DNA from: Porphyra umbilicalis
Lineage: Eukaryota; Rhodophyta; Bangiophyceae; Bangiales; Bangiaceae
Reading direction: 5' to 3'
Assembly (NCBI GenBank): GCA_002049455.2
Contig: KV918765.1
Span: 372,001 to 436,000 of the forward strand
DNA length: 64,000 nt
Of this stretch, positions 24,142 through 50,522 are shown in pieces. The stretch's first letter is position 1; each line of letters begins with the position of its first letter. The translations under genes and the position numbers were made by a program. Under the pieces are notes generated by a model that was not told where the DNA came from, made no database searches, and saw nothing but the letters and a program-made list of their open reading frames with translations.

Positions 24142-24283
24142 GACGATGACAACCACGCCAGCAGGCGCGGCACTGACGACGTGGGAGGCTATACCCACCT
24201 GCCCGACGCCGGAACACACCGCAACCCAACCAAGGTCGTCCCGCCAACAACGGCACGGAAGACGACGATGACCACCAGCGACA

Positions 24284-24297
24284 CCGGGCCCATAACC
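24284..24297 (-). promoter_or_regulatory. Copia #1 primer-binding site, initiator tRNA-Met anticodon-arm type
   Basis: Immediately inside the 5' LTR the minus strand reads GGTTATGGGCCCGG. This is complementary to the anticodon stem and loop of eukaryotic initiator tRNA-Met rather than to its 3' end. Drosophila copia is known to prime from such a cleaved half-tRNA. The same site occurs in copia #2. Confidence 0.8.
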
Positions 24298-24670
24298 TGT
24301 GAAGTCGGTGTGGTCAAGTGGGTGCGCTGTTTTACTATGGCAGAGGTCCTGGGCCGTGTCCAGCCACCTAATGTACCCCAGGCGGCCCCAGGACAGGTCG
24401 TCGGGCAGCCCGCTCTCGGAGCACACCCACGTGCCTCAGTTCACAGTGCGCGCGGGCCGCGGCGCACCTCCCAGAACGGGGCATGCACCTCCCCACACAA
24501 GTCCCCCCCCCCGAGCTCACCCCAGCAGAGAGTGCCCACTACGAGACCAACAAATCAAGTACACACAAGTACAAAACATACAACAAGTGCATAGGTAAAT
24601 ACCCAAAACTGAGTCCCAATGCTCAACCGGGTAAGTATAGACAAATGGAATTGCTGAGCCATGCTCAACA
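24298..24670 (-). repeat. 5' LTR of copia #1
   Basis: 373 bp. Contains the element's promoter by position. One extra C in a C-run relative to the other LTR. Confidence 0.95.
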
Positions 24671-27600
24671 AATGGGGTCATCACCCAGCGCCATCGGGTG
24701 TATGAGCGCCACCGCGTGCATGTTGCAACTGGCACCATGGACTGAACCGCCAACCAGACGTGCTGGGTGGAGGTAACCCATACGGGGAACACGAGTAAGC
24801 GACTCCCCAAGGGCATGGTCATGGGGCATATGTCGGCCTACTCCCGTACGGTAGCCGCCATATCCCGAGAGGACTGGGCTGCACTCAGCCCCAGTCCGAC
24901 CACCGCGCCCGACGCAACGGACCCCGTGGAGGGGCCCCACGTTCATACTTCGAACGTGCCCGAGGGGCTGCGGCCTCAAGTGCTCGCCCTACTGGAGAAG
25001 CATCGAGCCCTATGGAGTGGGCACTTGGGCTCCATCAAGGCCGCGGAGCACCGGATCGAGTTGAAGCCGGGCTCCAAGCCAGTCCGGCTCAACCCCTACC
25101 GGAAGGGTCCCCGAACTAGGGAACTCATCAAGGCCTAAGTCGACCGAATGCTCAAGCTCGAAGTTATAGAGCCCAGCCAGAGTGAATGGGCTAGCCCGGT
25201 GGTACTCATCCCGAAACCCGATGGGAGTCCTCGGTTCTGCATCGACTATCGGCAGTTGAACGAGCGCACAGTACGCGACTCGTATCCACTACCCCGGATG
25301 GACGGCTGCCTCGACTCCTTAGGGAATGCACAGTTCTTCTCCACTATGGACTGCAACGCGGGGCACTGGCAGATCCCCCTAGCCGAGGAGGATAAGCCGA
25401 AGACGGCATTCACTTGCCACTGTGGGACGTACCAGTGTACGCGTCTTCCGTTTGGCCAGTGCAATGCCCCTGCCACTTTCCAGCGGGCGATTGACATGAT
25501 CCTATCCGGAGTCAAGTGGCAGAATGTGCTCGTCTACTTAGACGACCTCATCATCTTCTCCGCCGATGCCGAGTCGCACCTGTCCCACTTGGACACGTGC
25601 TCACCTTACTCGGGAAGCACGGGGTCACACTCAAGGCACAGAAGTGCCACCTCTTTACTAATGAGGTGGAGTACCTTGGCCATGTTGTACGGCCAGGACG
25701 CTTGAGTGTTAACGAGAAGAACCTCAAGGCCATCAAGAAGGCCAGCTTCCCCAAGACCCAAACCCAACTTAGGAGTTTCCTGGGGATGTGCAATGTCTAT
25801 CGTCGGTTCACGGTAGACTTCGCTAAAACCGCGAAGCCGCTGAACAACTTGAACAGCGTAAAGCTTCCGAAGCGGTTGAGTCCCCCTACTCCGGAGGAAC
25901 AGAACGCTTTCGACAAACTACGCCAACAGCTATGCCACCCGCCCATCCTTGCGATACCACGCAAGGAGGGGAAGTACATCATCGATGTGGACGCTAGCTA
26001 CGACCAGCTAGGGTGCGTCCTACTACAGCAGCAACCCGATGGCAAGTACCTGCCCGTAGGCTTCTTCAGTAAGGGCCTACTACCGACGGAGAAGAACTAC
26101 ACCGTCACCGAGATTGAGGGACTAGGTGTGGTGTGGGCGGTCGGTTTAATACGACCGTACATCAAAGGCACCAAGTTCCTCATCCGGTGTGACCACAAGG
26201 CACTGAAGTGGATACTAACCACGACGGCCTGCACCAACAATCGACTCAATCGTTGGCGCATCCTCCTCTCGGAGTTCGACTATGATGTGGAGTACAAGCC
26301 CGGCCCCCAACATGCGGTGGCCGACGCTCTGTCCCGCATCCCGACTGAGGGGCTGAACACGGGACCCATCTCCCAGAAGATCCCCACAGTCGGGGTGACC
26401 ACTCGATCGGGGGCGGTACTCGACCCCCGACTCCCCGAGAACAGGGAGACTGCCCGCATACCCCTGGGCGAACTAGTCCAGAAGCAGGCGACAGACGAGT
26501 TCTGTCAGGGGGTCCAGAAGTTACTTGACGCCCCCACGCCCACGCGCTTCTACGTGAACGCGGACGGGTTGTTGTGTCGTCGCGGACACCGCGAGGGGAC
26601 CCAGCAGGTACTGGCCCCCCAGTCCCTAGTCAAGGACGTATTACGGGCGGAGCACTCCTCCCCCTTGGCTGCGCATTCAGGTGGGATGCGCATGTACCAG
26701 ACCCTGCGGGACCAATACTACTGGCCCTCGCTGGCGATTGATGTGTTCGGGTGGGTGGCAGCTTGCCCCACCTGTGCTAAGAACCGGCTCATGGGTACGC
26801 AGAGTAAAGCGTTCATGAGGTTCTTCCCCGCGACGGAACCCTTCGCAGCGCTGGCCATTGACTTACTTGGCCCCCTGCCCAGGACCTCCGAAGGATATGA
26901 GTATATCCTAGTTATTTGTGACCGATTTACTAAGGTCACTCGGGCGGTCCCGCTTCGAGACATCACGGCTCTGGATGTTCTCAGCGCGTTCCTCGACACG
27001 TGGAATGCTAGCTATGGGGTCCCCGATTCAGTTCTATCGGATAACAGACCCCAATTTGCTGCCGTACTCTGGCAAGGGGTACTCAAGACCCTGGGTATTG
27101 ACACTAACTATGCCACCCCTTACCACCCTCAAACTAATGGGCAGGTCGAACGGTTTAATAAGACCTTAGTTAAGCAACTACGCCACTACGTAAGTGACCA
27201 CGTAGTTACGTGGTCCCGATACTTCAGCCCGGTAGTAACGGCTTACAATTCGCAAGTGCATAGTAGCACTGGGCAGATCCCCTTTGCGTTCGTAAGCCCC
27301 CGACGTCTTACTCCCGTGGCCCTCGAGCGACTTACAGCGGGTACCGACACCGGGGAGATAGTCACCCCCGGGCGAGCCAAGGAGAATTTCCTCCAGCGCC
27401 TTGACTCCCTTATCCCCCTAGTACGGGAGACCATGGAGAAGGCACAGGCCCGGTACAAACGAGCATTCGACAAGCGCGTGCAGACTCGCCGCGAAGCGCT
27501 CCAAGTCGGTGACTGGGTATTCGTGAACTCCCACGAGAACCAGGGGGGTAAGCTCGTCTTCAAGACACTGGGACCCTACCAGATCTTGAAGACAGACGGG

Positions 27601-27939
27601 CGTCGGCTTACCATCGAAAGTGACGATGGTATCCGGACCATCAATGGGAACCACGCCACCCGGGCCCCGGAATCACCCGAGGGGGACCCGGCGTGGGCGC
27701 GGGCACTGGCCGCGTGGCGGGTCCCTTCCCTCCCCTCATCGGCCAGTAAACCGATTGAGGCTGTCTTCGACCGCTTTGTCGGACAGGGGTACGATGACCA
27801 AGAGCGACTCATGCTCAAGGTCAAATGGTTCGGGTATGGACCCCGGGAGGACTCCTGGCACTATGTGGAGGACCTCCCGGCTGAGAAGGTCCGCCAGCAC
27901 TGTGTGCGGCACCGGCTCACAATGAGAGGAAGGGTATAA
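24671..27939 (+). pseudogene. pol: Gypsy #2 Pol: RT, RNase H, integrase, chromodomain (broken)
   Basis: Continues the protease frame across the copia insertion. In-frame stops are TGA at 24743-24745 and TAA at 25136-25138. A one-base loss near 25599 shifts the frame after HLSHLDT. RT shows SPVVLIPKPDGSPRFCIDYR, MDCNAGHWQI and the catalytic VYLDD at 25535-25546. RNase H (YIIDVDASYDQLGCVLLQQQ ... VADALSR) follows. Integrase has an HHCC site (ending CPTCAKNR) and D (AIDLLGPL), D (LSDNRPQF, with R where G is usual) and E (NGQVERFNKTL). A chromodomain closes the protein (KVKWFGYGPREDSWHYVEDL), which places it among chromoviruses. Confidence 0.95.
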
Positions 27940-35643: not shown

Positions 35644-36518
35644 GCCGACAGTACGCGGCCGCCGCTAGAGGCGGCCGCAGAGAGATCTCGGACACCTTCG
35701 ACACACCAAAGGATCCCGACGCCGTTGCCATCAGCGGAGACGAGGTCATCAGCCGACGAGACGGGGCAAGTGCGCTGGACACCAACGGTGCGGACGAACT
35801 TCGTCGGTTTGCCGGTGGCAGTGCTCTCCAACTCTACTGCAGCGCCCTTGTCGGCAGCAGACGAGGAGGCGGCCTTGTCCGCGCAATGGCGTCAGCAATG
35901 GCTTCAGCAAAACCAACGGCCGCCCGATCCGACGGACGAGGAGTACACTGAAGAGGAGGCGGACAAGCTCTGCCCCCCGTTGTCGGACGCGTAGCACGTG
36001 GTGCGTTGGCCTCCCCTGCGGGGGCCTCCAGTGATGCGGACGGCGCGGCGGCTTCGGACGCGGGCGCTGCGTCATCGAACTCCCCGAAAGACTCGGCTAC
36101 CATGGCAGCGGTGGGTACGGGTGCCTCCCGGCGGGCGAGTGTCGCGCTGAGTTTCATAAGGCCCGTGCCCCAGAAAAGAAGCAGCCGAAGTTTGTCGTGG
36201 ACGGCGGATGACGCATTCTGCGTTGGTAAGGTCTTCAAGCAGACGACGACGGACCCTGTGCTCGGGACCTGCCAGGGTATGCAAGCCTTCAACGACAAGA
36301 TGGTCGTCAACATCCGAGTCTTCCTCACGCCCCCGACCGTCGCCCAGCAGCATCAGGAAGCGTCCCCGTGCGCCCCGCGCCGTCGGCGAGTGTCCCGAGC
36401 GGCCCCCGCGCAGCGGGCCCAAAACCGTCGTCAAGAGCACGTCTGCTTTTGGGTGTCTTGGGACGAACAGATAATCTGCAAACCGCCCTGGGGCTCTGTC
36501 AAGGCTGGTTTTTTCTAG
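35644..36518 (+). pseudogene. Hypothetical gene fragment in two frames upstream of the Fanzor relic
   Basis: The first frame carries DETGQVRWTPTVRTNFVGL, an acidic Gln-rich stretch (QWRQQWLQQNQRPPDPTDEE) and a stop at 35994. The next, in another frame, carries LSFIRPVPQKRSSRSLSWTA, DDAFCVGKVFKQTTTDPVLG and TCQGMQAFNDKMVVNIRVFL and ends at 36518. Codon composition looks genuine on the plus strand. The end runs into an inverted repeat shared with the Fanzor 5' region. Function unknown. Confidence 0.35.
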
Positions 36519-36867
36519 AAAGGGCGCCAAATGCATCTGCTCGCCGGGACAGATGCATCTCCACCGGTAAAAAGAGAGACACAGCATGAGACGTATACAC
36601 TTTACCCTTCCAGAAAGACAGAGAGACGGAGAAGCATCTATGGCCCTGCCAGCAGGCGGAATGCGTGGAGTGAGGAACGATTCCCGTTCTCGCAAACACA
36701 AGTATGCAAGGACATCGCAAGGGACGGCCTCTGAGAGCCTGTCAAGGGGGGTCGGTATGTTTTTTGCACAGGAATTCTGTTTCATCAAACAGGAACACGG
36801 GCCTCCGACAGGCTCTAAACAGGGAAAAACAGACGTGCGTTTGACGACGGTTGTGGGCCCGCTGCGC
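36408..36867. repeat. 43-bp inverted repeat flanking the start of the Fanzor relic
   Basis: Arms at 36408-36450 and 36825-36867 are inverted copies (39 of 43 positions agree). Weaker similarity extends outward. The minus-strand translation of the left arm (FADYLFVPRH...DVLLTTVLGPLR) resembles the plus-strand start of the Fanzor frame (FAQEFCFIKQEH...DVRLTTVVGPLR). Between them, ATGCATCTG at 36531 and CAGATGCAT at 36550 form another hairpin. Confidence 0.75.
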
Positions 36868-39275
36868 CGTGTGCCCGTCGGGGTGCCCCCCCCGTCAGAA
36901 GCAGTTCCCGACCCCTCTCCACCGAACATTGGCGGTGGGGACGGCGGGGGCAGGGACAGACCCATCGGCGGACCCGTCGCAAAGGACCTTGACCGTAACG
37001 ACGCCGTCGCGCGTCTGGGTGCGACCGGCGGGGACGCGGCCATCAAAGCTGGCGGCCACGTGGACGCCGCTCGACAGAGAGCCGCGATTGCCGTGCGGTC
37101 AGCGACGGTTGCAGTCGCCGCCGCCACCGCCGCGTGCGAAGCAGCCAGGGACGCGGAGCCGGTGGGCCCTCTGCGAGACGCAAGCACCCTGCTGGCCAGG
37201 CTGCTTGCAGCAAACCCCTTGCACGCGCGGTGCACCACGTCGTACGCGTCAGCAGCGCTGGGCGACGCCGAGTCGGCCTCGACCGCAGTACTGCGAGCCG
37301 TCGACACGGTGACCGTGCCGCCGCACCGACCACCGGCTGCCGTCAGAGGGGGCGGCGGCGCCGCAGACGCTGCCGCCGGTGCTGCGGCAGGTGCAACATT
37401 GCCGCGGTCGTGGCCTGTCGGCGCCTGTGAGTGCGCGCCTGTCACGCCGCAAGCAGCGTCTAGTCCACTGCCAAGGGCTTGATCCCCTTGGCAGCCCCCG
37501 AATCTGGGGCCCACCCGGGCGACGACGCGGGTGCTGGCGCAGGGGGCGCGCCGGCGAGCGTCGGCGGGGGCACACGTGGCGGCCTGCGCCGATGCGGCGG
37601 CTGCGGGACAACGGGGCACAATGTGAAAACATACTCAGCCGACGCAGCCGCCAAGGCGGCACACGCGGGGCGCATGGGCGCCGACGTGCGGTAAAGCGCG
37701 CCAGCGCCGGCAGCGGCCGGACCAGGTGCGGTGCCTGCCACGCGCGGGGCCAGACGCGCGCGAGCGCAGCATGCCCGCTACGTGCCGCCGCCCACGGCTG
37801 GTCGGACCACAATGAGGACCGCGGCCGCAACTTGGCGTTCGCCGACCAGTACCGCATGACGGGGGAGGTGACGACGACGGTGGCCATGTTGGTCCACCGC
37901 ATCTTTGGCTTCCGACGATGGCTGGCGCCAGGGCGGCCGGAAGACTCTTTGCCCCTGACGGGGCGCCCGCCGGCGACGTCGAGCCTTCGAGCGACGAAGG
38001 GGACCGCCGCCGCTGTCTCAAGCGCTGCTGCGGAGGCGGCCGCGCTGACAGATTTGGTGACGGCGCAAACGCAGCATCTGCGCCTCGTCTCCATCGTCGT
38101 GGATGGCACAATGCGGTACCTTTTCGAGCGCGTCGACGGCGGCGGGCTGGGTGCGGGTGGCGGTGGTGTCGACCGACGCACGCTCGACGAGTTTATGGCG
38201 GCCGTGCCGGCATCGCTGACGGGCAGCAACGGGCTCGCCTGGAAGCAGGTGGCCTCGACCGTCTCGTGTCGCGGTGTCCACGTTTTTGGTGGCGCCCCCC
38301 GGCCGGCGTGTGTGTGCTGCTTGGGGCGGGCCGCGCACGCCAAGCAACATGGTGACGTCAAGGCAGCAATCAGTGCCGGCGATTACGCCGCCGTTGTTGC
38401 CGCGTCGGCGGCAGTGGCGGCAGCCGTTACAGAGCCAGACCAGCTGCCGTGCAGCACGCTGCTGCCGCGTCCAGTTGACACGGGCGGCTGGGCAACCGTG
38501 GCAACGACGCTTGAAAACCATTATGTGACGCACGTCACGTGGACGGTGAAGGCCATTGCCAAGTGCATCGTCCTTGACGTCTACCCGCAGACCCCGGGCG
38601 GGTCTGAAGGGCACTTCCGCGCGGCACTGGTGGACACGCTCGTTGCCGGCCTGCACGCTACCGACGGCAGCCGCCCGGCAGTCGTAGTATGGCCGGCGGG
38701 CACGCCTGCAGCGAACAACCAAACCATGGCGGCCACCGCCGCGCTGGCGTACGACACTGTGCTCGTGTACATTGCTTTCGGCGACCGACGGTGCTTGCTG
38801 CTGCACCTAGACACACTGGCCATGCGACAGCGGCCACTGAACGTCTACCCGCTGTTGCACCATGCCCAGGCCCTGTGCGTCCGCGCCGGCATCGAGGCCG
38901 CCGACACGTGACCCGGCCTTGCCGCTACGTTCACCGCGTACGCGCGCGTCGGCGGCGCGCAGCTTTGCAAGCGCCTGGCGGCCCACGGGGATTTGCTCAT
39001 CCAACCACAGACGGCCGCCGGATTGGTTGTGCAGACGCTGCTCCGCCGCGCGGGCATCATCCGCGCCTCGACGGTCGTTGGTCACTCCATCGTGGCGGAC
39101 GGCGTCGGCGTGCACTTCAAGATACGACACCCCGCCACTGCCACGTCGGCGGCGGCCGCTCGGCGGGCGCACCGCAGGGCGGCCCGTGACGGTCGTGGCG
39201 GGGGGGGTCCGACCGAGACGGAGAGCGCGCGGTCGCCGCTTCACCGCATGGCGTTGGCCACCGACGTTGTCAAAG
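36757..39275 (+). pseudogene. Fanzor (eukaryotic TnpB homologue) relic, N-terminal part
   Basis: ATG at 36757 (MFFAQEFCF). Protein-like text runs in frame 1 to 37482, in frame 3 to 37694, then in frame 2 to the copia insertion, with TGA at 38909 in frame. Features in order: an Ala-rich helical region; a zinc-knuckle-like RRCGGCGTTGHNVKTYS; a second knuckle RCGACHARGQTRASAACPL in the next frame; a folded region (VTWTVKAIAKCIVLDVYPQ, PAVVVWPAGTP, LALAYDTVLVYIAF-like strands); and VVGHSIVADGVGVHFKIRHP. The last matches the TnpB/Fanzor pre-RuvC strand usually reading TDGVSVSV. Fanzor proteins are RNA-guided DNA nucleases carried by eukaryotic transposons and giant viruses. Copia #2 inserted in the codon series TDVVK, 12 codons before the RuvC-I Asp. 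The gene is dead through frameshifts, a stop and the insertion. Confidence 0.75.
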
Positions 39276-39693
39276 TGTTGGACTGTGATGCTCGTCGCCC
39301 ACTCCACTGGCGGCTCGCGGTTGGATGATGGTCGGTGACCCTTATGGTACCCAACATGGTACATTTGCAAGACGTTGTCAAGTTGCACACATTCGTGTTG
39401 GGTGCTCTTGGGGCGGTACTTTTGGCATGTTTTGGATTTGATCTTCGGTTTGCTCTAGTGCATTTTAATTTGGGGAGTGATTCGATTTGGTGCGAGGGCG
39501 TGGGCGTCGGTGTGGGCGCGAGAGTGGGGAGCACTTGGGCCGGTGGGGACTATTTGAGAGGTGCTCTCGGTTGGGAGAGGCAAGCGAACCTTAGGACAAC
39601 AAACAAAGCACGTTCGCACACACACACAAAAGCTCAAGCCACTCAACCACTTCACCGTGGTCCCCCAACCCCTTCACGCACTGCGCTTCAACA
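39276..39693 (+). repeat. 5' LTR of copia #2
   Basis: 418 bp; matches 43817-44524 outside the MITE with scattered substitutions. A (CA)n stretch lies near 39617-39628. Confidence 0.95.
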
Positions 39694-39710
39694 GGTTATG
39701 GGCCCAGAGC
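39694..39710 (+). promoter_or_regulatory. Copia #2 primer-binding site, initiator tRNA-Met anticodon-arm type
   Basis: GGTTATGGGCCCAGAGC directly abuts the LTR, the same placement and core as in copia #1 and in Drosophila copia. Confidence 0.8.
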
Positions 39711-39854
39711 TGAGGCTGTGACAAGAACATGGTGTGCCAGCTGGCGTCTCAGCGATCGCGGCAAGTGCGACGAAAACGAGGTCAAGGTGGTTCAAGGACG
39801 TGACGGGCAAGGCACACGGCTCGGCAAGGTCGAGCGCAACGACAAGAAGACATC

Positions 39855-42800
39855 ATGGACGGGGGCGCTGCCGGCATGGGCGGCACCAAGATCGACAAGT
39901 TGACGGAGACGAACTTTCACGAGTGGCGTCAGCGCATTAAGATGGTCTTCGCGCTGCGCGACCTGGACGATATGCTTGACGAAGACGGCAAGCCGACGGA
40001 CGCGGAGACCTGCGAGTTGGCGATTTGCAAGCGTCGAGACACGAAGGCGAGCGCCATCATTGGGCTTACCCTTGGGTCTGAGCATCTCGAACACGTGTCG
40101 GGCTGCAACACGATGGCGGAAATGTGGTCGACGCTGCAAGGTGTCTTCCAGCGCAAGAGTTTGATGAACAAGATGAAGGCGCGACGCGAGTTCTACATTG
40201 TCGAAATGACCGTCGGCGAGGGCATGCTGGGCTACATCAACCGCGTACGCAACCTCGGCGAGAACCATCAGGCCATGGGCGGCGAGGTGACGGAGATGGA
40301 CGTTGCCATGAGCGTCCCTAACGGGCTGACGTCAAAGTATGAGAACCTGCTGGTGGCTCTCGACGCCAAGGGCGAGGACGAGCTGAGCCTCAACTTTGTC
40401 AAGACCCGCTGGATTCAGGAGGAGCGGCGGCAGGCGGACGAGTCACCGGCAACAAAGCGCATTGGCGACATGGCACTCGTCGGCGCCAACTATCGAGGTC
40501 GAGGCCGCCGTGGTGACCTCTCCAAGATCGAGTGCTACTACTGCCATAAGTTTGGGCACATCTCTCACGAATTCCCAGAGCTCAAGGCCAAGAAGAAAAG
40601 ACAGTCCAAGGCTGTCGCGATTGCGGCTGACGATGGTAGCGACAGCTACGACGCCATCTGTCTGGTGGGCAATGCGGCTGACACCGATGACATCTCCAAG
40701 TCGTGGCTTGTCGACTCTGCGGCGTCTGCACACATGTTCTAGATGCGCGGGTGCTTCGACAACTACCATACGACCACGGGACGGAGCGTCACCATGGGTG
40801 ACAAGGGGTCCGTAGCCATAGCGGGCGTCGGAAGCGTCGTGCTCAATGTCATCGTTCACGGCAAGACGCGCAAAATCAAGTTGGAGAAGGTAATCAATGT
40901 TCCTACGATGGGCTTCAACCTCATGTCGCTCGGCATGATGGAGGAGCGTTGTGCGGAAGTGTCATTCATGGGCGGTAAGACGATCATAAAGATGAGCGAC
41001 AGGGTCGCTGCGTGCGGCACGCGGAATAGTGGACTTTACCACCTGGACATGGCCCCACTGTCGGATATTGCTGCGGTGGCCTCTCTTCAGCTCTGGCATG
41101 AGCGCCTTGGGCACGTCAACGTGGCTGGCGTGAAGCGGATGATCAAGAACAAGGACATCGATGGACTCAAGTGCTCTTCCATGGCGGTCAAGGACGTCTG
41201 CGAGCCGTGCGTGTATGAGAAGGCGGCTATGACGCCTATGCCTAGTGCAGGAGGAGGTCGAGTGACCAAGCGCCTGCAGCTCGTGCACTCGGACCTGGGC
41301 GGGCCAAAGTCGGAGCCGTCGCGTGGCGGTGCGCTCTACTTCGGCACCTTCACCGACGACTTCTCCCGCTGGACAGACGTGGTCTTCCTGAAAAAGAAGA
41401 GCGATCTGCTCTCTGAGTACAAGAAGTGGCTGATTAAGGCCCAGCTGCACACGGGAACCAAGATCAAGATCGTTCGCTTTGACAATGGCGGCGAGTACGT
41501 GTCGAACGCATTCAAGGCTCTTCACGATGAGAACAGCACAACGCACCAGACCACGGTGCCCGACACGCCGCAGCAGAACGGGGTTTCTGAGCGGCTCAAC
41601 CAAGTTCTCGTGGAGATGGCTCGCACCATGATGCGACACAAGGACGTTGATCAGGATCTTTGGGCGGATGCCATCAAGACGGGTGTTTCCATCAAAAACC
41701 GCGTCACCAGCCGGGCGCTTCCCGTCAGCAAGACGCCATTTGAGCTGTGGACCGGTGATAAGCCCAACATAAGCCACATGCGGGTGTTTTAGTAGACATG
41801 CTGGGTCGTGCTGCACAAGAGTCATATCGACGACAAGTTTGGCGACAAGGCGGCGAAGGGCGTCTTCTTAGGCTATCCTGACGGCAGCAAGGCGTACAAG
41901 GTCATCCTCGACGACGGCAAAATCGTCAAGGCACGATGCGTGGTGTTCGCCGAGACGGACAAAACCGAGGTCGCAGAAGCTGCGGAGGAGCTTTCCGGAG
42001 ACAAAGTTGTCGAGTTCGAGACAGGTTTGCGCTCTGCAAGCGACGGCGAAGACGTAGATGCTGACAGTGACGACAAGGACGACAAGCAACACAATGGATC
42101 TGACAGTCCGCGGACGACAATCAAGGTAGTGGCAGCTCTCAAGACACGCTGCGTCGGAGCTGCAGAGCGCGGCGACCACCTGTCAAGAACTGGCGCCCGG
42201 TGAGCCTGGTTGCTCACGAGGCGCTCACGACGTACGTGCAAGCCGTACAAGGGCAAGAATCGGCTGAGTGGCGGATTGCCATGGATGAGGAGATGGAGGC
42301 CATCTGCAAGAACAAGACTTGGCGCTTGACGGATCGCCCGGCCAGTCGACGCGTGCTGAAGGGCAAGTGGGTTTACAATATCAAGAACGAGGTTGACAAA
42401 AACGGGACTAGCACGACGCGGCACAAGGTGCGCCTTCGCTACATGGGGAACCGGCAGATCAAGGGGCTCGACTTGAACGAGACTTTCGCGCCGGTGGCCA
42501 AGATCACTACCATCCGATGCATCCTGGCGATGACGGCGGCGAACGGGTGGGAGCTACATCAGATGGACGTCAAGACCGCCTTCCTCAACGGAGACCTTGA
42601 CGAGGAGATCTACATGGAGCAGCCAGACGTCAATGTCGATCCGACGTATCCTGACAAGGTTTGTCGTCTCCTCCAAGCGCTGTATGGGCTGAAGCAAGCC
42701 CCCAAGATGTGGTACGCCAAGCTCGACGACTTCCTCAAGTCGCAGGGGTTTGACAACATTGACCCGGATGCATGCCTCTACCTCCTTATGGATGACGGCG

Positions 42801-43781
42801 AAATCATGATCGTTCTGGTGTACGTCGAACGATCTTCTTTTGGTGGCAAAAAGCCTGACGGCGATCTACAAGATTAAGGACGCTTTGCACAAGCGTTTTG
42901 AGATGAAGGACCTGGGCGAGGCGAAGGTCATCCTCGGGCTAGAGATTAGGCGTGACAGGGCATTGGGCACCCTCAAGCTGTCGCAGGGCAAGTACGCGGC
43001 GCAAGTGCTGGAGACGTTAGGGATGGCGGAGTGCATTCCGATCGGAGCGCCGATGGAGGTGGGCCTGCAGCTGGTCAAGGCCGACGAGAGCGACGACGCG
43101 CTACCCTACCGCGAAGCCGTCGGCAGTCTTTTGTACCTGATGGTCGGGACGCGTCCTGACCTCACCTTCGCCATTGGAAATCTGAGCCGGTTTGTCTCGT
43201 ACTACGGCAAGGAGGATTGGGCGGCGATCAAGCGCGTTCTACGTAACGTCAAGGGCTCGAGGGACAAGGGGCTGGTATTGGACAAGAACTCTTCATGTGT
43301 TTTACAAGGCTTTAGTGATGCCGACTGGGCGGGTGACCACGAGACGCGACGTTCTACGACGGGCTCCACCTTCATCTTTGGCGGAGCAGCTGTCAGCTGA
43401 GGTTCTAAGTTGCAGAAGACGGTGGCGCTGTCGACGATGGAAGCCGAGTACATGGCTCTATTTGAGGCCAGCAAGGATGCTGTTAGGCTCAACAAGCTCG
43501 TGCAAAGCGTGGCATCTCAAGGGCTGCGGACACCGATCTCGGGCGAACCGATCAGCATCAAGGTCGACAACAGCGGGTGCATTGACTTCTCCAAGAACCC
43601 CGTCGAGCACAAGCGCACGAAGCACATCGCCATTCGCTACCACTTTGTGCGCGAGGTCATCACGACGGACAAGGTGACTCTGGAGCATTGTGCAACGGGC
43701 GACACGGTGGCGGACCCGATGACGAAGGAGCTCGGCAAGACCAAGCACGACAAGCATGAAGAGGCCATGGGTCTTTGCTGA
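39855..43781 (+). pseudogene. pol: Copia #2 Gag-Pol, multiply broken
   Basis: ATG at 39855. Gag domain (TETNFHEWRQRIKMVFALRD ... MWSTLQGVFQRKSL), knuckle-like CYYCHKFGHISHEFPE (last Cys changed to Phe), protease start WLVDSAASAHMF then TAG at 40740. Integrase has an intact zinc pair (CEPC) and D, D, E in HSDLGGP, RFDNGGEYV and NGVSERLNQ. TAG TAG at 41790-41795 and a frameshift near 42170 follow. RT (DVKTAFLNGDLDEEIYMEQP) is hit by one extra A at 42828-42829 inside the YVDD catalytic motif. RNase H (FSDADWAGDHETRRSTTG) has TGA at 43398 where Trp is expected, then ALSTMEAEYMAL to the stop at 43781. It was once a complete copia polyprotein and is no longer functional. Confidence 0.95.
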
Positions 43782-43816
43782 ATACAAGAACCGCCGCGGC
43801 AACAAGTAAGGAGGAA

Positions 43817-44524
43817 TGTTGGACTTTGATGCTCGTCGCCGACTCCACTGGCGGTTCGCGGTTGGATGATGGTCGGTGACCCTTACGGTACCCCACATGG
43901 TACATTTGCAAGACGTGGTCAAGTTGCACACATTCGTGTTGGGTGATCTTGGAGTGTTACTTTTGGCATGTTTTGGATTTGATCTTCGCTTTGCTCTAGT
44001 GTCCATTCTACTGACCGCCTCATTTGAGCCTCTCAGGCTCATTTGAGCATATTTTTGATGCCTCTCTGTGACCAGGTTCCGGCATCGGCTGCTCTTTTTG
44101 AGAAAAGATATTGACTCAGCGCAGTCAACTTACCTATGGGCCAACTCGACGGCTGTGTACAATGAAAACTCGGAGGGGGTGCCCCAGACACCCCAAAAAG
44201 GCCGCGTTTCCAGGCCATATGAGAGGGAGCCTCATTTGAGCCTCATCTGAGGCTCATTAGAGCCTCGGGAGCAGTAGAATGGACACTAGTGGCCTTTGAT
44301 TTTGGGAGTGATTCGATTTGGTGCGAGGGCGTGGGCGTCGGTGAGGGCGCGAGAGGGGGGAGCTCTTGGGCCGGTGGGGACTTTTTGAGAGGTGCTCTCG
44401 GTTGGGAGAGGCGGGCGAACCTTAGGACAACAAACAAAGCACGTTCGCACACACACACACGAGCTCAAGCCACTCAACCACTCCACCGTGGTCCCCCAAC
44501 CCCCACTCCTACTGCGTTTCAACA
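43817..44524 (+). repeat. 3' LTR of copia #2, interrupted by a MITE
   Basis: 708 bp. Subtracting the insert and its duplicated TA (290 bp) gives 418 bp, exactly the length of the 5' LTR. Confidence 0.95.
43999..44286. mobile_element. 288-bp TA-flanked MITE inside the copia #2 3' LTR
   Basis: Perfect 15-bp terminal inverted repeats GTGTCCATTCTACTG/CAGTAGAATGGACAC, flanked by TA at 43997-43998 and 44287-44288. The 5' LTR supplies the empty site (CTCTAGTGCATTTTAATTTG). Because the target is CTAG, a 4-bp CTAG duplication with a 14-bp repeat is equally compatible. TA would suggest the Tc1/mariner superfamily. The interior repeats CTCATTTGAGCCTC near both ends and has no coding capacity. Confidence 0.9.
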
Positions 44525-46901
44525 CAAGGCGCTCGTCTTTGTCGGGTAGGACCCGGGCGTCGCGTCCATCGTCGCTGCCTACTGCCCCGGGGCGGCTCCA
44601 TTTTCGCTCTCACCGGCACCGCACCTGCACGCGTGCGGGGCGTATGGGGCGCTGCGGGTTACGGCCGACGCGCTCGCACGGGCGGCCGTGGCCGCGACCG
44701 CCGCTGCAGAGCGCCACGTGCGGCGCGGCCATCGGTTACTGCCGATTGTCGACGCGCTACGTGCAACGGTGGCCGATGCTGCGCGCGCGGCCGTGGCCAC
44801 CGCGGCAGCCCTACCAGTCGGCAGCGGTGACGCGGTCTGCCGAACGACTAGAAAGCGCGGCCGTGGCGCGCTCGGCGCGTCGTCTGGGGCGTGGGGGTCT
44901 CCCGCAAAGCAGAGTCGTCGAGCTTTTGTGGGCCCGCCGGCGCAGTCGTCTGTGCCGCCGCCCTTGGAGCACGCACAGACGCAGCCGGCTTCGGCGCCGG
45001 CCCCTCCCCCCCCCCCTGCCCGCTTAAGCGGCCCCTGTACACGCAGCCGGCCTACGGCGACGCGTGGCTCTCGCCCGTTTAGTGGCAAGAGGTCGCCCGC
45101 AAGATGGGGACGAGCGGCCCCGACGGCACGCGGCCACTGCTGACGCGCCTGCACGCGCTCGCACACGCCGCGGGCAACGACGGCGGCGTCCAGCCGAGGC
45201 GTTTCCCCAACCACGTGTGTGTGTGGATGAGAGATGCGGCCCTGTTCAAAGAGGCAGCGCACGCGAAGGCGGCTGTCAAGGCCGAGACAGACGCGGCGGT
45301 GCACGCAGAGACTGTATGGCGTGCAGTGTTGGGCAACAATGGGGTACATGCCGCGTGCGTCGAACAGCGAACGGCGCAGGACAAGCGCCAGACGGCGGCG
45401 GTATTGCGCACGGCAGAGCGAGTGGCGGCTGCGGCAGCCGCAGCTGCACCCGCTGCGCCCCCGCAGCTCGGCGCGCCCGGCACGCCGCTGCCGTCGGCAG
45501 ACCGTCTGCGAGTGCTGTGTGCCGTCCTCCGGCGTGCGGCCACGACCAGGAGACCGCGCGCGCGCGCGTCCGCCGGCGGGGGCAACGCTTGTCGTCTCCG
45601 AAGGGGCGTACCGCAAATCGACGTGCGCCAGTATGACCCAGCCCGCGGAAACGGCAGCGGCTGCAGCTTGGGCGGCGACAAGGCCTGACGTGTCGTGCGA
45701 GTCCCTGACGGCCGGGTGCTCTCTCACAGTCGCATCTTGGGGCGCATGGGTGGTGGCGGCCACTACGCGCATCGCGCGCACCTACACAGACGCCTACCAG
45801 TCCGCGTACGGGGCGGCCGTGACGTGGGGCCGGCGAAAGGCGCGCCTGCACGCGCTCATCCAGCGCAACTGGTACGCGGCAAAGTTGGCCCACCGCATGA
45901 CGAGTACGTTCCTGCGGCACACGGTGGTCGGCACCAAGGCGGTGCTGGCCGTTGGCCGATGCAGGCCCCGCGCCGGCAGCGTCGATCCCGTGCGGCGCAT
46001 GGCCAAACACGTGCACCTCGTGTACGTTGACGAGCACAATACGAGCCAGACGTGTGCCGAGTTCGGCCACGTCTTGTTCAACACGTACGTGTCGCCCGAC
46101 TCGCAGCTTGACCTGACGCTCCTCAAGGCGACAAGAATTTACGCGCAGCGCGCGTCGGCGTCTGCGGCCAAGCGCGCCTCTCCCCTTCGCAACGGCCGGC
46201 GCGCGCGACGGGGTGTGACGATCGGCAGTCGGTCGGGTCCACGCGACGATGCGGCCGCCCAGCGCGCCAAGGAGCACGCAGGGACGGTGCGGACAGAGGT
46301 GTTGCAGGCGATTGCGGCTCACGGCAAGTGCGCGTTCGGGACCGACCCGCTGGTACTGTGGGGGGTCAAGCTGTGCACCAGCGTTGCGAATCCGGCGACG
46401 TACGTCGGGCGAGACACCAACGCGGCGCGCAACATGTCCAAGATTGCCATCAAGAGCATACAGGGTCGGAGCGTGTACCCCAAAATCCGGGGGTACACAA
46501 TCTCACGCGCGCCACCGCGGGACGATCCAGTCCAGGCTGTGCGGCACGCGGCTGCGATCGAGGCGGGTTCCTACAAGGCCGGATATGGGTAGACGCGGTG
46601 TTCACCCACGTCGTGGGCGGGTTGGCGCCGACCTGTGGTCGCCCACCCGTCGGTGGCGGAGGCGGGGACGGCCCCCACGGCAGTGGCAGGGGCGGCGCCG
46701 ACGTTGCGGGCAGAGACATTGGGTATAGTGGCAGACGGGGCGCACGCCGCAGCTGCTGCGTCGGCAAGCGGTGACCTGGTGACGAGTATCGTCGACCAGA
46801 TGGCTGCTGCCAGCCTCGCGCCAGCCGCGGGGCACAGCCACTTGTCTTCGAGCCGCCTCGAGCGGGTAATCAAATACTGTTCACTAAGAGGCGATGGCTA
46901 G
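44525..46901 (+). pseudogene. Fanzor relic, C-terminal RuvC nuclease part
   Basis: The frame resumes in phase after copia #2 with GALVFVG, a TAG codon, then DPGVASIVAAY, the RuvC-I motif with its catalytic Asp. A slip in the C run near 45010 and another in the GC repeat near 45550 change frame, and TAG occurs at 45080. Further on are AGATLVVSEGAY and the treble-clef region VYVDEHNTSQTCAEFGHVLF, where only one Cys of the expected C-x2-C remains. VLWGVKLCTS again has one Cys of a pair. YVGRDTNAARNMSKIA carries the RuvC-III Asp. The stop at 46590 is followed by about 100 more open codons (to 46901) of Ala-rich sequence in the same frame. TSxTC and RD-x-NAARN are diagnostic of TnpB/Fanzor. Confidence 0.85.
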
Positions 46902-49028
46902 TGTCGTAGCTTCGCTTTGGCGCCCTGTTTGAAAAACGGGGTGCGTACTAGTCCGAGGTTCCGGTACGGAAGCAGTAGAAAATCTCAAGATCTCGGGCCC
47001 CGGCACCATGCACGTTGGATGTTCGGATACTGAGACGAATCTCTGTCCAGTCGTTACAACTCGAACGTTGTAACGACTGGCTACTACAGCATCCTCAGGA
47101 CGGCTCTCAGCCATCCCGGTGACGATTGGGTATGCGCGCGCCACGTGCACTCACTCTGATCCACACAGCTATCCGCGTCCCACCACGCATTCATTGAAAG
47201 ATTCAAGGCATTCCAAAGCTGGCTCCGATTTCAACCCCTTCTCAGTGCATGTTCAGCGCATGTCCTTGATTATCTGCGTGAATCTCATGTCGGTGTTTCT
47301 GACCTCCGCTCTTGGTACCTAAAGGCATCAGTATTAACCCTAGATGAGTTTCAATAAACTAATACTCTCTGGCGATGCAGGCCTCAGAGCATCACGCCCT
47401 GAGGGGCACGCCTAGGCAAGACCCGGAGTATCGGCTCTTCTGGGTTTTGACAGTAGATGTAACGTCCCTTTGGGTTCGGCCATCAAATGCGACATTCTAT
47501 TGGTCTCTGGGATCTCTGTCTTTCTTTTCTTCGTGCGCACAGGCCGGGGTCAGCTTTTTCCCCGGAATCGCCACGTGGATCAGGTCAGCCGCCTTACTGG
47601 TGCCTCAGGAGAGGGGGCCTTCCTCGAAGGGACCTTTTCCTCTGCAAAAACGGTACCGACCCGACCCAGTTTTCTTGATGCGGCCGGCACAATGGACCTC
47701 CAGAACGCTGTCGTAATCTTGGAACTGTGGCAGCCCCGCACACTCCCCCCCTCCATGATCATGAGCGAAGATGAAATATGATCAACTAGATAGGTCGAGT
47801 AGATAGCCCTCATACGTAGTAGACGAGCCCGGTTGGTTGTCTAAGAGCAATCCCAACAATGTCGATTATCGTAGAAATATGGACCACGTGTCCCCACTTG
47901 TCTAACGTGGCACCATATGCGGAAACTAGCACCACCGACAATGTCCCGTATGCAGAACTTCCGCAAACGGGCCAGACACGATTTACAGCGCCGAGCTCAG
48001 TCCAACCGGATAATCCAGAGGTGAGTTCGGAGGCAGTCGCGAAACAAGGGTGGGCGTCCTCATGGAAGCCAGATTTGGGGACGTCAGAGGCCGATTACCG
48101 ACCGGTCCGAATGGGGCCGGCCCGTTTTAGGCGAAATGGAGCGCTGCCACTGGCTCAGGAGAGCTCCGAGACGATCGTGATGGTCACCACGTGTGACACT
48201 CATGATCGCACCATCTGGTTTTGGCGCTCGGCCGTCGCCAGCCCGGGTGATTCGTGCCCATCACGCGGTGGTGATTCGTGCCCATCACGCGACCGACCCC
48301 GGTCAAATATCAGCCAACCTGAAACTAGTCATCGTGTGACATCGCAGGCGAATGCCGAACATTTCGCTGCCGAGTATCGATCTGTGCAACCAAAATTTTG
48401 GACGTAGGGGCCGTACAGGAGCTCTCACTCCAGACCACCAACCGACACAGCCTCGTTCGAGGCCGCATAACGAGCCGGAGAAACACCAGCAGGACCACTC
48501 TTGCAAGCGTGCCGCGTGCTGTCAACTGACGAGATTCGCATGCACTGCATGCCGGCCCCGTGCAGGCCGGTCGCTCCCAACGCGTCGCCACGTTGTGTCA
48601 TGCGGCTGGCGGACCTGTTTCTGCTTGTAGTGGCTGATCGCCTGTGGGTGGCCGATCGGGTCGAGAGCCTCGCTTCCTGGCCAACAGGGCGCGCAGGAGG
48701 GCGCGCAGGAGGGGGTGCACCCCGCTGTACCCCACTGAACAGGCCTCAATGGCAAGGTGGAGGGCGGGTCGCGCTCGACGCACCCACATCATAGTGTCCA
48801 AATTGTGGGGGTGGCGGTGACAGGGGGCACCACCTGTCCAGGACGACTAGGCACGGTATATGCACCTTCAGCCGGCTGGCACCGGGAGCGCGACGCGCAC
48901 CGCACGACGCACGCCGACGTCGTGTGCTCGACGACATGCTCCCGTCGTGGGCACAGTCCTCCTCCCTCTCTCATTCTCCAGTCATGATCCCGCTTTGAGT
49001 TCTCCGTCCCGCGCCGGGCCCGTGGATC
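46902..49028. other. Spacer; one strong hairpin and short tandem repeats
   Basis: No supported gene in 2.1 kb. It contains a perfect 14-bp-stem hairpin at 47047-47080 (listed separately), a 24-bp unit twice at 48247-48294 (GTGATTCGTGCCCATCACGC core), and a doubled GGGCGCGCAGGA near 48688. The left end of the Harbinger element must lie toward the right of this interval, but its terminal repeat was not found. Confidence 0.5.
47047..47080. repeat. Perfect 14-bp-stem hairpin downstream of the Fanzor relic
   Basis: CCAGTCGTTACAAC, loop TCGAAC, then GTTGTAACGACTGG. No T-run follows, so it is not a simple bacterial-type terminator. Confidence 0.85.
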
Positions 49029-50522
49029 ATGGACGACGATGTAGCTGAGGATGAGCTGCAGATGGCCGTCGTGCTTGACGCTCGAGCCACCCTCTCTGTG
49101 CGCCGTGCGCTTCTCTCGGTGCGAGCCGGACGCCTGCGCAAGCGCATTGAAGGCTCCCGTCCAGGCCGTCGCCTGAACCGGCCTCTCGATTTCAACCTAG
49201 GTGCGCATGCCATTTTGCGAGATTACTTTGGTGTGGACGGGGCGCCACCAGTCTACGGCGAGGACCCGTTTCAGGAGCGTTTCCGCCTGCCACGGCCGGT
49301 TTTCAACCGTCAATTCCGAGCTATTTGCAACGAGCCCATTTGGAGGCGCACTGTCAACGCCACCGGTCGCCCGCAGGCCCATGCCATTCAGAAGGTGGCT
49401 GCCGCGTTGAGGGTGCTTGGGTATGGAGAGCCCTTTGACCGCGCTGACGATTACTGTCGCCTTTCCCGCTCCACCATTGATATGTACACCCGCCGCCTGA
49501 CGCACTTTATTATTGACAAGTGGAAACCGACGTACCTCCGGCGTCCCAATGCCGAGGAGCTGGAGCACATCCTCACGCGCAACGCAGCCCGCGGCATGCC
49601 GGGCTGCATGGGCTCTATCGACTGCACCCACTGGACTTGGGCCAAGTGCCCAAAGGCCCTGGCCGGGCAGTACAAGGACCGCAACGGCAAGATATCGGTA
49701 GTGATTGAGACGGTGTGTGACGAGGACCTGTACATCTGGCACTCGTTTGTGGGATGCCCGGGCACCTACAACGACAAGAGCGTGCTAGTCGCGTCGCCGC
49801 TGATTCTGGACGTTAACGATGGAACGTGGCCACCGAGGATCTACAACTACACACTTAACGGCCGCTCTCGTCGATTGCTTTTTTACGCGGCCGACCAAGG
49901 CTACCCCCGATACGCTATCTTTGCTCAGCCGTACTCCAAGCCCGACACGCCTCGACGACAGGTGTACAACGTCCTGCAGGAGGCGGTGCGCAAGGACGCG
50001 GAGCTCCTGTACGCGGTGTGGTGGTCGCGATGGTTCATCACTAAGTACCCGGCACGCTACATGAAGCTGCCGCGCCTCATCAACACAGCCAAAGCCGTGG
50101 CCACCCTCTACAACATGGCCGTGGAACACCGCCGTCACAGCTTTATTGCATCAACGCGCATGGCGGCGGCGGCGGCGGTACGCGGCGCGAGGAGCGGACG
50201 TCACGACGGTGACGATCAAGGCGCCAGTGGAGATGGGACGGTCTTTGTCAAGGACGATGGGTCAACATGTGGCTCTGTATGGGGCGCACCTGTGCCTGAT
50301 TGTTACGGTCGAGGCAATGACCGTCGTGGCTGTGAAGGCGCCCGGATAGGAACGGCGAGGTACATGCAAATGGCCGAGAAAGAGGCCAAGGAAACGCAAG
50401 AGCACTTCTCCTTGCTCCATGACTTGGCAGAGCACGTGTGGGCCGACCGCGGCAGCCTATTAGCCCCGTACTTGCGACTGCCAGATGAAGGAGGGGTTGA
50501 GCGAGGGATCAAGTCGGGCTGA
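49029..50522 (+). CDS. PIF/Harbinger transposase (DDE, intact)
   Basis: ATG at 49029, 497 residues, uninterrupted. Residues 118-161 form a helix-turn-helix-like region (AIQKVAAALRVLGYGEPFDR, LSRSTIDMYTRRLTHFI). The DDE nuclease domain has D198 in GSIDCTHWTW, D289 in FYAADQGYPRY and E325 in RKDAELLYAVWWSRWFI, with CPGTYNDKSVL between. This is the ALP1/plant-transposon-protein type of Harbinger nuclease (Pfam DDE_Tnp_4/Plant_tran by recollection). The C-terminal 120 residues are low complexity. Harbinger transposases need a Myb/SANT-like partner for DNA binding; a matching gene lies convergently at 51739-53844. No intron or stop is seen, so this protein could be active if supplied with the partner. 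Confidence 0.95.
   Translation: MDDDVAEDELQMAVVLDARATLSVRRALLSVRAGRLRKRIEGSRPGRRLNRPLDFNLGAHAILRDYFGVDGAPPVYGEDPFQERFRLPRPVFNRQFRAICNEPIWRRTVNATGRPQAHAIQKVAAALRVLGYGEPFDRADDYCRLSRSTIDMYTRRLTHFIIDKWKPTYLRRPNAEELEHILTRNAARGMPGCMGSIDCTHWTWAKCPKALAGQYKDRNGKISVVIETVCDEDLYIWHSFVGCPGTYNDKSVLVASPLILDVNDGTWPPRIYNYTLNGRSRRLLFYAADQGYPRYAIFAQPYSKPDTPRRQVYNVLQEAVRKDAELLYAVWWSRWFITKYPARYMKLPRLINTAKAVATLYNMAVEHRRHSFIASTRMAAAAAVRGARSGRHDGDDQGASGDGTVFVKDDGSTCGSVWGAPVPDCYGRGNDRRGCEGARIGTARYMQMAEKEAKETQEHFSLLHDLAEHVWADRGSLLAPYLRLPDEGGVERGIKSG

Follow-up and report, generated by a model that had tools for sequence, protein, structure and literature searches.

Fanzor proteins are eukaryotic TnpB-like RNA-guided nucleases, and the described systems closest to the one reported here are the Chlamydomonas elements CRe-1/2/3 (Helitron2 with Fanzor1), which share with it a Fanzor gene in a hairpin-ended element with asymmetric terminal inverted repeats (excerpts of PMC3627910). 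The same excerpts describe CRe-1/2/3 as non-autonomous, with Fanzor genes of 5 or 10 exons and, in many copies, target duplications of 7-19 bp after TTTT. Another likeness is to CMe-1A of the red alga Cyanidioschyzon merolae, a multi-copy Fanzor1 element without terminal inverted repeats of which some copies are intact (PMC3627910, in excerpt). Here we analyse a stretch of 64,000 nucleotides from the red alga Porphyra umbilicalis (contig KV918765.1; C5:372001-436000), called the window and numbered from its first letter, against the 83.8 Mb of genome searched (665 contigs). The window holds a long, divergent Fanzor gene in a dead copy, split by a copia retrotransposon, and comparison of its paralogues indicates that Fanzor is the 3'-terminal gene of large P. 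umbilicalis mobile elements with conserved 5' and 3' ends.

The Porphyra elements differ from CRe-1/2/3, as excerpted, in having a Fanzor of one long frame, zinc knuckles, extra genes, no target duplication in nine of nine copies and an (A)TYA flank, and from CMe-1A in that the consensus of the latter is only ~3 kb. Their protein has ~1,640 or more residues, whereas the Spizellomyces prototype has 633 (PMC3627910, same excerpts). SpuFz1 and GtFz1 take their guide from the 3' flank and have a short 5' target motif, CATA and TTAAN (excerpts of PMC10432273); the counterpart in Porphyra would be the (A)TYA flank, where we only infer RNA and cutting. Zinc knuckles are not mentioned in those excerpts for SpuFz1 or GtFz1. 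Like the giant cargo transposons (Polintons and the 16-20 kb red-algal En/Spm elements; PMC6431247, in part), the Porphyra elements are eukaryotic, tens of kb long and carry several genes. Unlike them, they contain no recognised transposase (Helitron_like_N and KDZ were the families searched) and carry instead an RNA-guided-type nuclease and an N4/N6 DNA methyltransferase. Their ends and flanks resemble those of Helitron2 or IS605. Fanzor in Helitron2-like elements is known already; what seems to be new is that such an element can be large, with many genes that include a methyltransferase, and that its Fanzor bears knuckles. In the open-licence PMC literature we found no Fanzor report from Porphyra, no relevant report of Fanzor with Ulp1, and no Fanzor element of many genes in which a DNA methyltransferase accompanies a Fanzor with knuckles and ~1,640 or more residues; such an element may nevertheless be in print elsewhere.

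Results

A dead, copia-split copy of a long Fanzor-type gene

The initial annotation of the window had proposed that a copia element at 39276-44524 splits one gene. Comparison with paralogues bears this out: blastn similarity of the window to five paralogous loci stops at 39273 or 39281 and restarts at 44525, and the paralogue ends of the two halves overlap by 3 or 11 bases; there is therefore nothing between them, and all five loci are uninterrupted at this place. The relic consists of the following parts.

36330-36409, plus strand: first homologous stretch of the Fanzor relic, 5' of a small insert (87.5% identity to L042 1406-1485)
36410-36866, no strand: small insert whose inverted-repeat ends are imperfect (gap in blastn with L039, L041 and L042)
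36867-39275, plus strand: N-terminal and central part of the relic, in several frames (blastn, tblastn)
37593-37634, plus strand: zinc knuckle 1, CGGCGTTGHNVKTY, last Cys changed (CGGCGATGHNVKTC in E56, CGGCGTTGHNVKTC in E3)
37727-37774, plus strand: zinc knuckle 2, CGACHARGQTRASAAC, His changed (CGACHARGHTRASAAC in E60, CSACHARGHTRASAVC in E56; E3 lacks the first Cys)
39092-39121, plus strand: VADGVGVHFK, the strand preceding RuvC-I (VSDGVGVH in E3, E5 and E56)
44525-46884, plus strand: C-terminal part of the relic (82.7-85.1% identity to five paralogues)
44550-44567, plus strand: RuvC-I DPGVAS, immediately past an in-frame stop (FVGWDPGVAS in paralogues)
46026-46064, plus strand: VDEHNTSQTCAEF, with the alternative RuvC-II Glu and the first zinc pair, the latter damaged (PF07282 match)
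46374-46436, plus strand: CTSVANPATYVGRDTNAARNM, with the second zinc pair, likewise damaged, and the RuvC-III Asp

The stretch at 36867-39275 is 83.5% identical to E60 and E88, 82.9% to E25 and 76.3% to E348 and E68 (tblastn E = 4e-167). Near the start of the gene the relic is interrupted by the 457-bp insert, which is not in the paralogues compared by blastn; its inverted ends pair at 39 of 43 bases, while a simpler test finds 4 exact bases only. The relic had been annotated from 36757, a position that falls within this insert, and to 46901; homology to the paralogues in fact starts at 36330, and the element ends at 46952.

The motifs of the initial annotation were recovered at their places. 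RuvC-I DPG (44550-44558) lies just past the copia insertion and after a stop, the pre-RuvC strand VADGVGVHFK has its counterpart in the paralogues, and the zinc and RuvC-III signatures stand downstream, VDEHNTSQTC at 46026-46055 and YVGRDTNAARNM finishing at 46436. Inactivating damage comprises stops at 38909, 44547 and 46590, at least four frame changes, and the loss of knuckle and ribbon ligands. Matching frame switches occur at ~44960-45083, where there is a C run, and before 45591, where there is a GC run, in line with the proposed slips at such runs. In each knuckle one ligand is replaced (C by Y in the first, H by Q in the second), and the zinc ribbon lacks two cysteines (CAEF, CTSVANP), so that the relic has no C4 ribbon. 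These data support the view that a large knuckle-bearing Fanzor was once encoded here and is now inactivated.

Paralogues encode one long, divergent Fanzor-type protein

Genome-wide, 66 matches were obtained for the C-terminal piece of the relic (45912-46589); 49 rows other than the window are near full length at 78-86% identity, and six of these contain an inner stop. Both knuckles lie in the first 463 residues of E56, for which 81 matching pieces were obtained in the genome. Counts of paired pieces were made on 56 of the 66 C-terminal rows (all except the window and 9 short fragments), 50 of 81 N-terminal, 23 of 28 methyltransferase, 21 of 30 ParB-like and 18 of 25 Ulp1 rows, leaving out the window itself, short fragments and second pieces of one copy. 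For 46 of the 56 C-terminal pieces, the 12 kb upstream contain an N-terminal, knuckle-half piece in the same orientation, and the two halves are therefore one gene, as the annotated relic required.

Intact relatives hold the knuckles, RuvC-I and the zinc/RuvC-III region in one open frame. In E56 this frame has 1660 codons, the first ATG being codon 25, and contains in order knuckle 1 (from 298), knuckle 2 (near 344-359), VSDGVGVHF (806), WDPGVAS (874), TSQTC (1373) and GRDTNAARNM (1495). E3 has an open frame of 1921 codons with the same motif order, its knuckle 2 being short of one Cys; the 1458 open codons of E5 cover the later part of the gene, without the N-terminal part. Between E3 and E56 the ratio of nonsynonymous to synonymous change (dN/dS) is 0.37 overall, 0.31 in the knuckles and 0.15 around RuvC-I, and from these values we conclude that the protein has been under selection. 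An intron in E25, E60 and E88, where the gene lies in two overlapping frames, was considered and dropped, as the frame is continuous in E3 and E56. As a separate observation, the 3' kb of the gene (E56 codons 1212-1660; L053/L052) is much more similar across lineages than the remainder, synonymous sites included; this 3' module was likely exchanged between elements.

Fanzors are recognised by a RuvC-I DPG and by a RuvC-II Glu six residues ahead of the zinc motif (PMC10711439, in excerpt). We counted motifs in the 29 best-matching paralogue loci. RuvC-I DPG is present in 23 of them, where the 1.5-kb upstream flank used may fall short of the motif. The alternative RuvC-II Glu, six residues ahead of the zinc pair, was found in the window and in 28 of the 29 loci, as was the RuvC-III RD. 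Of the C4 zinc ribbon, CAECGH is seen in 28 of the loci and CTxxACP in 27. In the genome search PF07282 exceeds its cut-off at 32 places. The protein is, on its motifs, a divergent Fanzor-type protein.

Conserved ends and target-side flanks

The 3' end of the elements reads GGGAGCTTCGCTCC TCACCTCTTCCAGAGGTGA CTACTGGT and lies ~44 bp past the Fanzor stop codon. In 27 of 30 script-matched loci an unrelated flank follows it directly; the other three are the window lineage and two loci that share a different sequence. The 5' end, TTAGCGAAGCTTCTAGTAGGGATCC, was obtained by comparing C31 with C141. Searches with the reversed patterns as controls gave 0 places for either end, against 67 places genome-wide for the 3' end and at least 126 for the 5' end. 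The 5' ends (at least 126) are more numerous than the main-type 3' ends (67). They include a second class, ATTCGCGTTC, which differs by one fixed change and may mark other elements that use the same mover. Of the 56 listed C-terminal Fanzor pieces, 39 have a 3' end no more than 1 kb away. Another conserved site, CACGTGCGGATGG, was rejected as 5' end because the flanks remain similar beyond it.

A 9-bp asymmetric inverted repeat joins the two ends, with AGCGAAGCT at the 5' end and AGCTTCGCT ahead of the 3' hairpin; the elements thus have the asymmetric terminal inverted repeats and 3' hairpin described for Helitron2 (PMC3627910, in excerpt). As to a 5' hairpin, there is only a GAAGCTTC palindrome, and two 60-nt folds disagree. 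Among 22 5' flanks hand-picked from the at least 126 places (three from the second 5'-end class), there is a T at -3 in 20, a pyrimidine at -2 in 18, an A at -1 in 17 and an A at -4 in 13, giving (A)TYA. The first base of 27 3' flanks is T in 12 and C in 7. No target duplication of more than 2 bp stands flush with the true ends in any of the nine copies for which both flanks are available.

Ends on the same contig span 14.2 kb (C56), 22.1 kb (C141), 33.3 kb (C272), 36.1 kb (C55), 40.3 kb (C31), 41.6 kb (C363), 48.5 kb (C60), 52.4 kb (C8), 60.8 kb (C33), 63.0 kb (C88) and 65.0 kb (C25). These spans are upper bounds, because the outer ends on C25 enclose two gene sets and long insertions are likely on C88 and others. 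The Fanzor gene on C31 is stretched by ~5 kb, and on C55 the Fanzor piece lies ~17 kb from the paired 3' end.

A fixed order of genes upstream of Fanzor

In the long elements, which the initial annotation did not foresee, the genes have a fixed order: N4/N6 DNA methyltransferase, ParB/DndB-like gene, Ulp1-like protease, Fanzor. Upstream of Fanzor, the copies on C25, C60 and C88 have in common a 123-bp tandem array, a leucine-rich repeat (LRR) gene (over the Pfam cut-off), a 191-193-bp array, a Ulp1-type protease (PF02902, Peptidase_C48, E = 1.5e-4, over cut-off), the unassigned open reading frame (ORF) orf752 (pLDDT 30 in the AlphaFold2, AF2, model), a ParB/DndB-like ORF and arrays of 193 and 220 bp. 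Among unassigned frames, orf752 is the best candidate for a mover. The ParB/DndB-like label derives from a DndB match of E = 0.26 only and, for ParB, from inspection by eye. Further upstream on C31, on the opposite strand, a 1122-codon ORF contains a DNA methylase domain of the N6_N4 type (PF01555, E = 5.5e-9, over cut-off), and two ORFs encode AAA+ ATPases (PF00004, E = 2.1e-31 and 1.3e-25, both over cut-off); C272 is ~95-96% identical to this methyltransferase/AAA+ stretch. Behind the methylase domain, frames of L055:722-1465 (minus strand) read AFGEELLVEYGADFEWKF, which by eye resembles the end of a SET domain; with no Pfam support, a SET domain was rejected. Large tandem arrays in or 5' of elements include 332 bp x 22, 194 bp x 33 and 220 bp x 10 (L046, L048 and L054).

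The 21 ParB-like pieces were used to follow this order through the genome. Fifteen have Ulp1 2.9-5.0 kb downstream (searched within 12 kb), 15 are followed on their own strand by a Fanzor piece no more than 45 kb away (13 of these at 10.4-16.6 kb), and 15 have the methyltransferase upstream on the opposite strand; six lack each partner, and ten have all three. Four of the ten full sets (C5:507k, C8, C33 and C62) belong to a diverged lineage, in which the main pieces share ~30-39% identity with the queries.

The terminus of the window copy

Downstream of the relic the window retains the 3' end of an element.

46908-46916, plus strand: AGCTTCGCT, the 3' subterminal inverted repeat of AGCGAAGCT in related elements (by position)
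46920-46945, plus strand: 3' terminal hairpin of the window lineage (fold z -3.7 for 46890-46953)
46946-46952, plus strand: TACTAGT, the element 3' end (TACTGGT in other lineages; end comparison)

The AGCTTCGCT match is by itself no better than chance and is meaningful through its position. The window copy belongs to a third lineage, in which the stem of the 3' hairpin differs and the fold, AGCTTCGCT and TACTAGT are retained. Termini of this type occur at nine places in the genome at up to three mismatches (control 0), three of them directly past Fanzor pieces (the window, C88:238.9k and C214:116.1k). In tblastn searches of the window with the C60 and C31 proteins, no other element gene was found at E < 0.2 outside the Fanzor region, and one methyltransferase match (E = 0.007) fell inside it. 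No element 5' end was found in the window. From these comparisons the window copy is a truncated or short copy of the element.

The copia insertion and other elements of the window

The elements inserted in the relic are as follows.

39271-39275, plus strand: target-site copy CAAAG (sequence comparison)
39276-44524, plus strand: copia long terminal repeat (LTR) retrotransposon (Pfam domains, LTRs, target copies)
44000-44285, no strand: small insert in the 3' LTR with ends TGTCCATTCTACTG/CAGTAGAATGGACA and CTAG flanks (read from the sequence)
44525-44529, plus strand: target-site copy CAAGG (sequence comparison)

Retrotran_gag_2, gag_pre-integrs, Pol_BBD, rve and RVT_2 domains all exceed their Pfam cut-offs, and the LTRs, the gag-INT-RT order and the 5-bp target copies identify the element as copia. 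Its LTRs (39276-39693 and 43817-44524, the second carrying the insert) diverge by a Kimura two-parameter (K2P) distance of 0.075. The uninterrupted target site reads GTCAAGG in E60, E3, E5, E56 and E68 and GTCAAGT in E25. Elsewhere in the window are a second copia element at 19957-24435 (minus strand), with one open gag-pol frame of 1492 codons; two long Ty3/gypsy-type RNase H/integrase frames at 3-2117 and 25495-27939 (plus strand); and, downstream of the relic, a Harbinger/PIF-type transposase in an open frame of 507 codons at 48999-50522 (plus strand; PF04827, E = 1.6e-48).

Discussion

A proposed model for movement and guiding

We propose that the elements would move by a single-strand, Helitron2/IS605-like route via their hairpin ends, with a Rep protein that is either provided in trans or not recognised. 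An intact Fanzor would bind RNA transcribed through the 3' end of the element, in which the end of the ORF and the terminal hairpins would form the scaffold and the flanking DNA the guide: only ~44 bp separate the stop codon of the Fanzor gene from the element end, which the flank follows directly, and the guide could therefore come from the flank, as in the Fanzors of PMC10432273. The nuclease might then recut the empty site beside the (A)TYA motif, and repair would copy the element back. The methyltransferase, AAA+, ParB-like and Ulp1-like proteins could serve in DNA or chromatin masking and copy control; where a methyltransferase neighbours a site-specific nuclease, either the element or the target might be masked. 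Reduced synonymous change in the ORF tail (apparent in the E3-E56 pair, tail dS 0.059) was examined as a guide-RNA signal and rejected, since the drop begins before the zinc ribbon and is flat, and exchange of the 3' module explains it equally.

Weighing the explanation

As a whole, the explanation that the window holds a dead copy of a Fanzor that occupies the 3'-terminal position in large mobile elements, with movement and guiding as modelled, is in our judgement quite probable. Several results weigh against it. On the window piece, PF07282 did match, as the initial annotation would have had it (E = 3.1e-5), and the score of 24.5 bits stays below the gathering score of 26.3; on the whole of E56 it is also below cut-off (E = 0.002), and the match spans just ~22-27 residues. 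The two knuckle-like motifs of that annotation were located, each with its changed ligand, and the knuckle profile is under its cut-off wherever tried, with E = 0.14 in the window and 0.0023 and 0.88 elsewhere. In E56, the RuvC-I D at 875 and the TS at 1373 are ~498 residues apart, outside the D-X(125,275)-[TS][TS] spacing of Fanzors (Bao and Jurka 2013; PMC3627910, in excerpt), and we therefore file the protein as a divergent Fanzor-type protein, not as a typical member. The AF2 model of the E56 core has a pLDDT of 32, a PDB sequence search gave no match with the single sequence and two unrelated chains (E = 1.7-1.8) with a profile, and the NCBIfam TnpB model reaches E = 0.22 only; as fold prediction is poor, membership in Fanzor rests on the motifs and the short Pfam match. 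At the level of the element, the AAA genes are limited to a reading on C31 and a match on C272, LRR genes are present in three copies only, and the long elements were read in part, with nested insertions enlarging their spans. Compared with shuffles, the terminal 120-nt folds of two paralogues are weakly better (z -1.3 and -1.8; window -2.2). Across 10 x 10 lineage pairs no special synonymous constraint was found in the ORF tail, pS being flat from the zinc region on. Finally, neither Helitron_like_N nor KDZ was found inside complete copies.

Of the alternatives, ordinary Helitrons with captured host genes fare best and are still rather unlikely. The Helitron2-type ends, the A at the 5' flank and the lack of duplication all agree with them, and Helitron_like_N has 29 matches in the genome, 27 over cut-off. 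None of these, however, shares a contig with any of the eleven end-paired copies (the helicase domain was not searched), for which reason the elements were not filed as Helitron; KDZ likewise occurs in the genome and not within the eleven copies, one match on C56 lying ~48 kb off (other transposase families were not searched). Moreover, the order of methyltransferase, ParB-like, Ulp1 and Fanzor is kept at ~30-39% identity, and full-length gene capture by Helitrons is described as exceptionally rare (PMC6431247, in part).

An improbable alternative is that Fanzor forms a small mobile unit of its own, in the style of TnpB-only elements, that often lands in or near large elements, the upstream gene block being a separate element. 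It would explain why 28 of the 67 3' ends are more than 1 kb from any listed Fanzor piece (39 of the 56 pieces pair), why 7 of the 23 methyltransferase pieces are on contigs without any ParB-like piece and 6 of the 21 ParB-like pieces are without Fanzor within 45 kb, why lineage B copies (E56, 14.2 kb between ends) show no upstream genes in the parts read, and why the 3' kb is far more similar across lineages than the rest. The spacing argues against it: 13 of the 21 ParB-like pieces have Fanzor on the same strand at 10.4-16.6 kb, those of the diverged lineage (four) included, and on C31, C60, C272 and C363 the 5' end is located beyond the methyltransferase. That the zinc and RD motifs mark another RuvC-like or zinc protein would suit the low pLDDT, the lack of a relevant PDB match, the NCBIfam TnpB value and the spacing beyond the published range, but is very improbable in view of the conserved co-occurrence of DPG, a Glu exactly six residues before the zinc pair, ribbon and RD, and of PF07282 over cut-off in 32 places.

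Returning to Fanzor as the 3'-terminal gene of a large element, a further and tentative reading, less likely than not, is that of a mobile guided restriction-modification system. This would be a new class of giant eukaryotic elements, in which an N4/N6 methyltransferase and chromatin-acting proteins of the element accompany an RNA-guided nuclease of unusual size with zinc knuckles, and which would home to sites beside (A)TYA and re-copy themselves there.

These elements bear on the open question of why Fanzors ride many eukaryotic transposons. They occur in dozens of copies, some with intact frames, with common sharp ends and a target-side motif, and they tie the nuclease to a DNA methyltransferase across deep divergence. 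A Fanzor-type protein of at least 1.6 thousand residues with zinc knuckles would broaden the size and architecture of the family, and one seaweed makes the origin of the guide, the target motif and a protective role of methylation directly testable.

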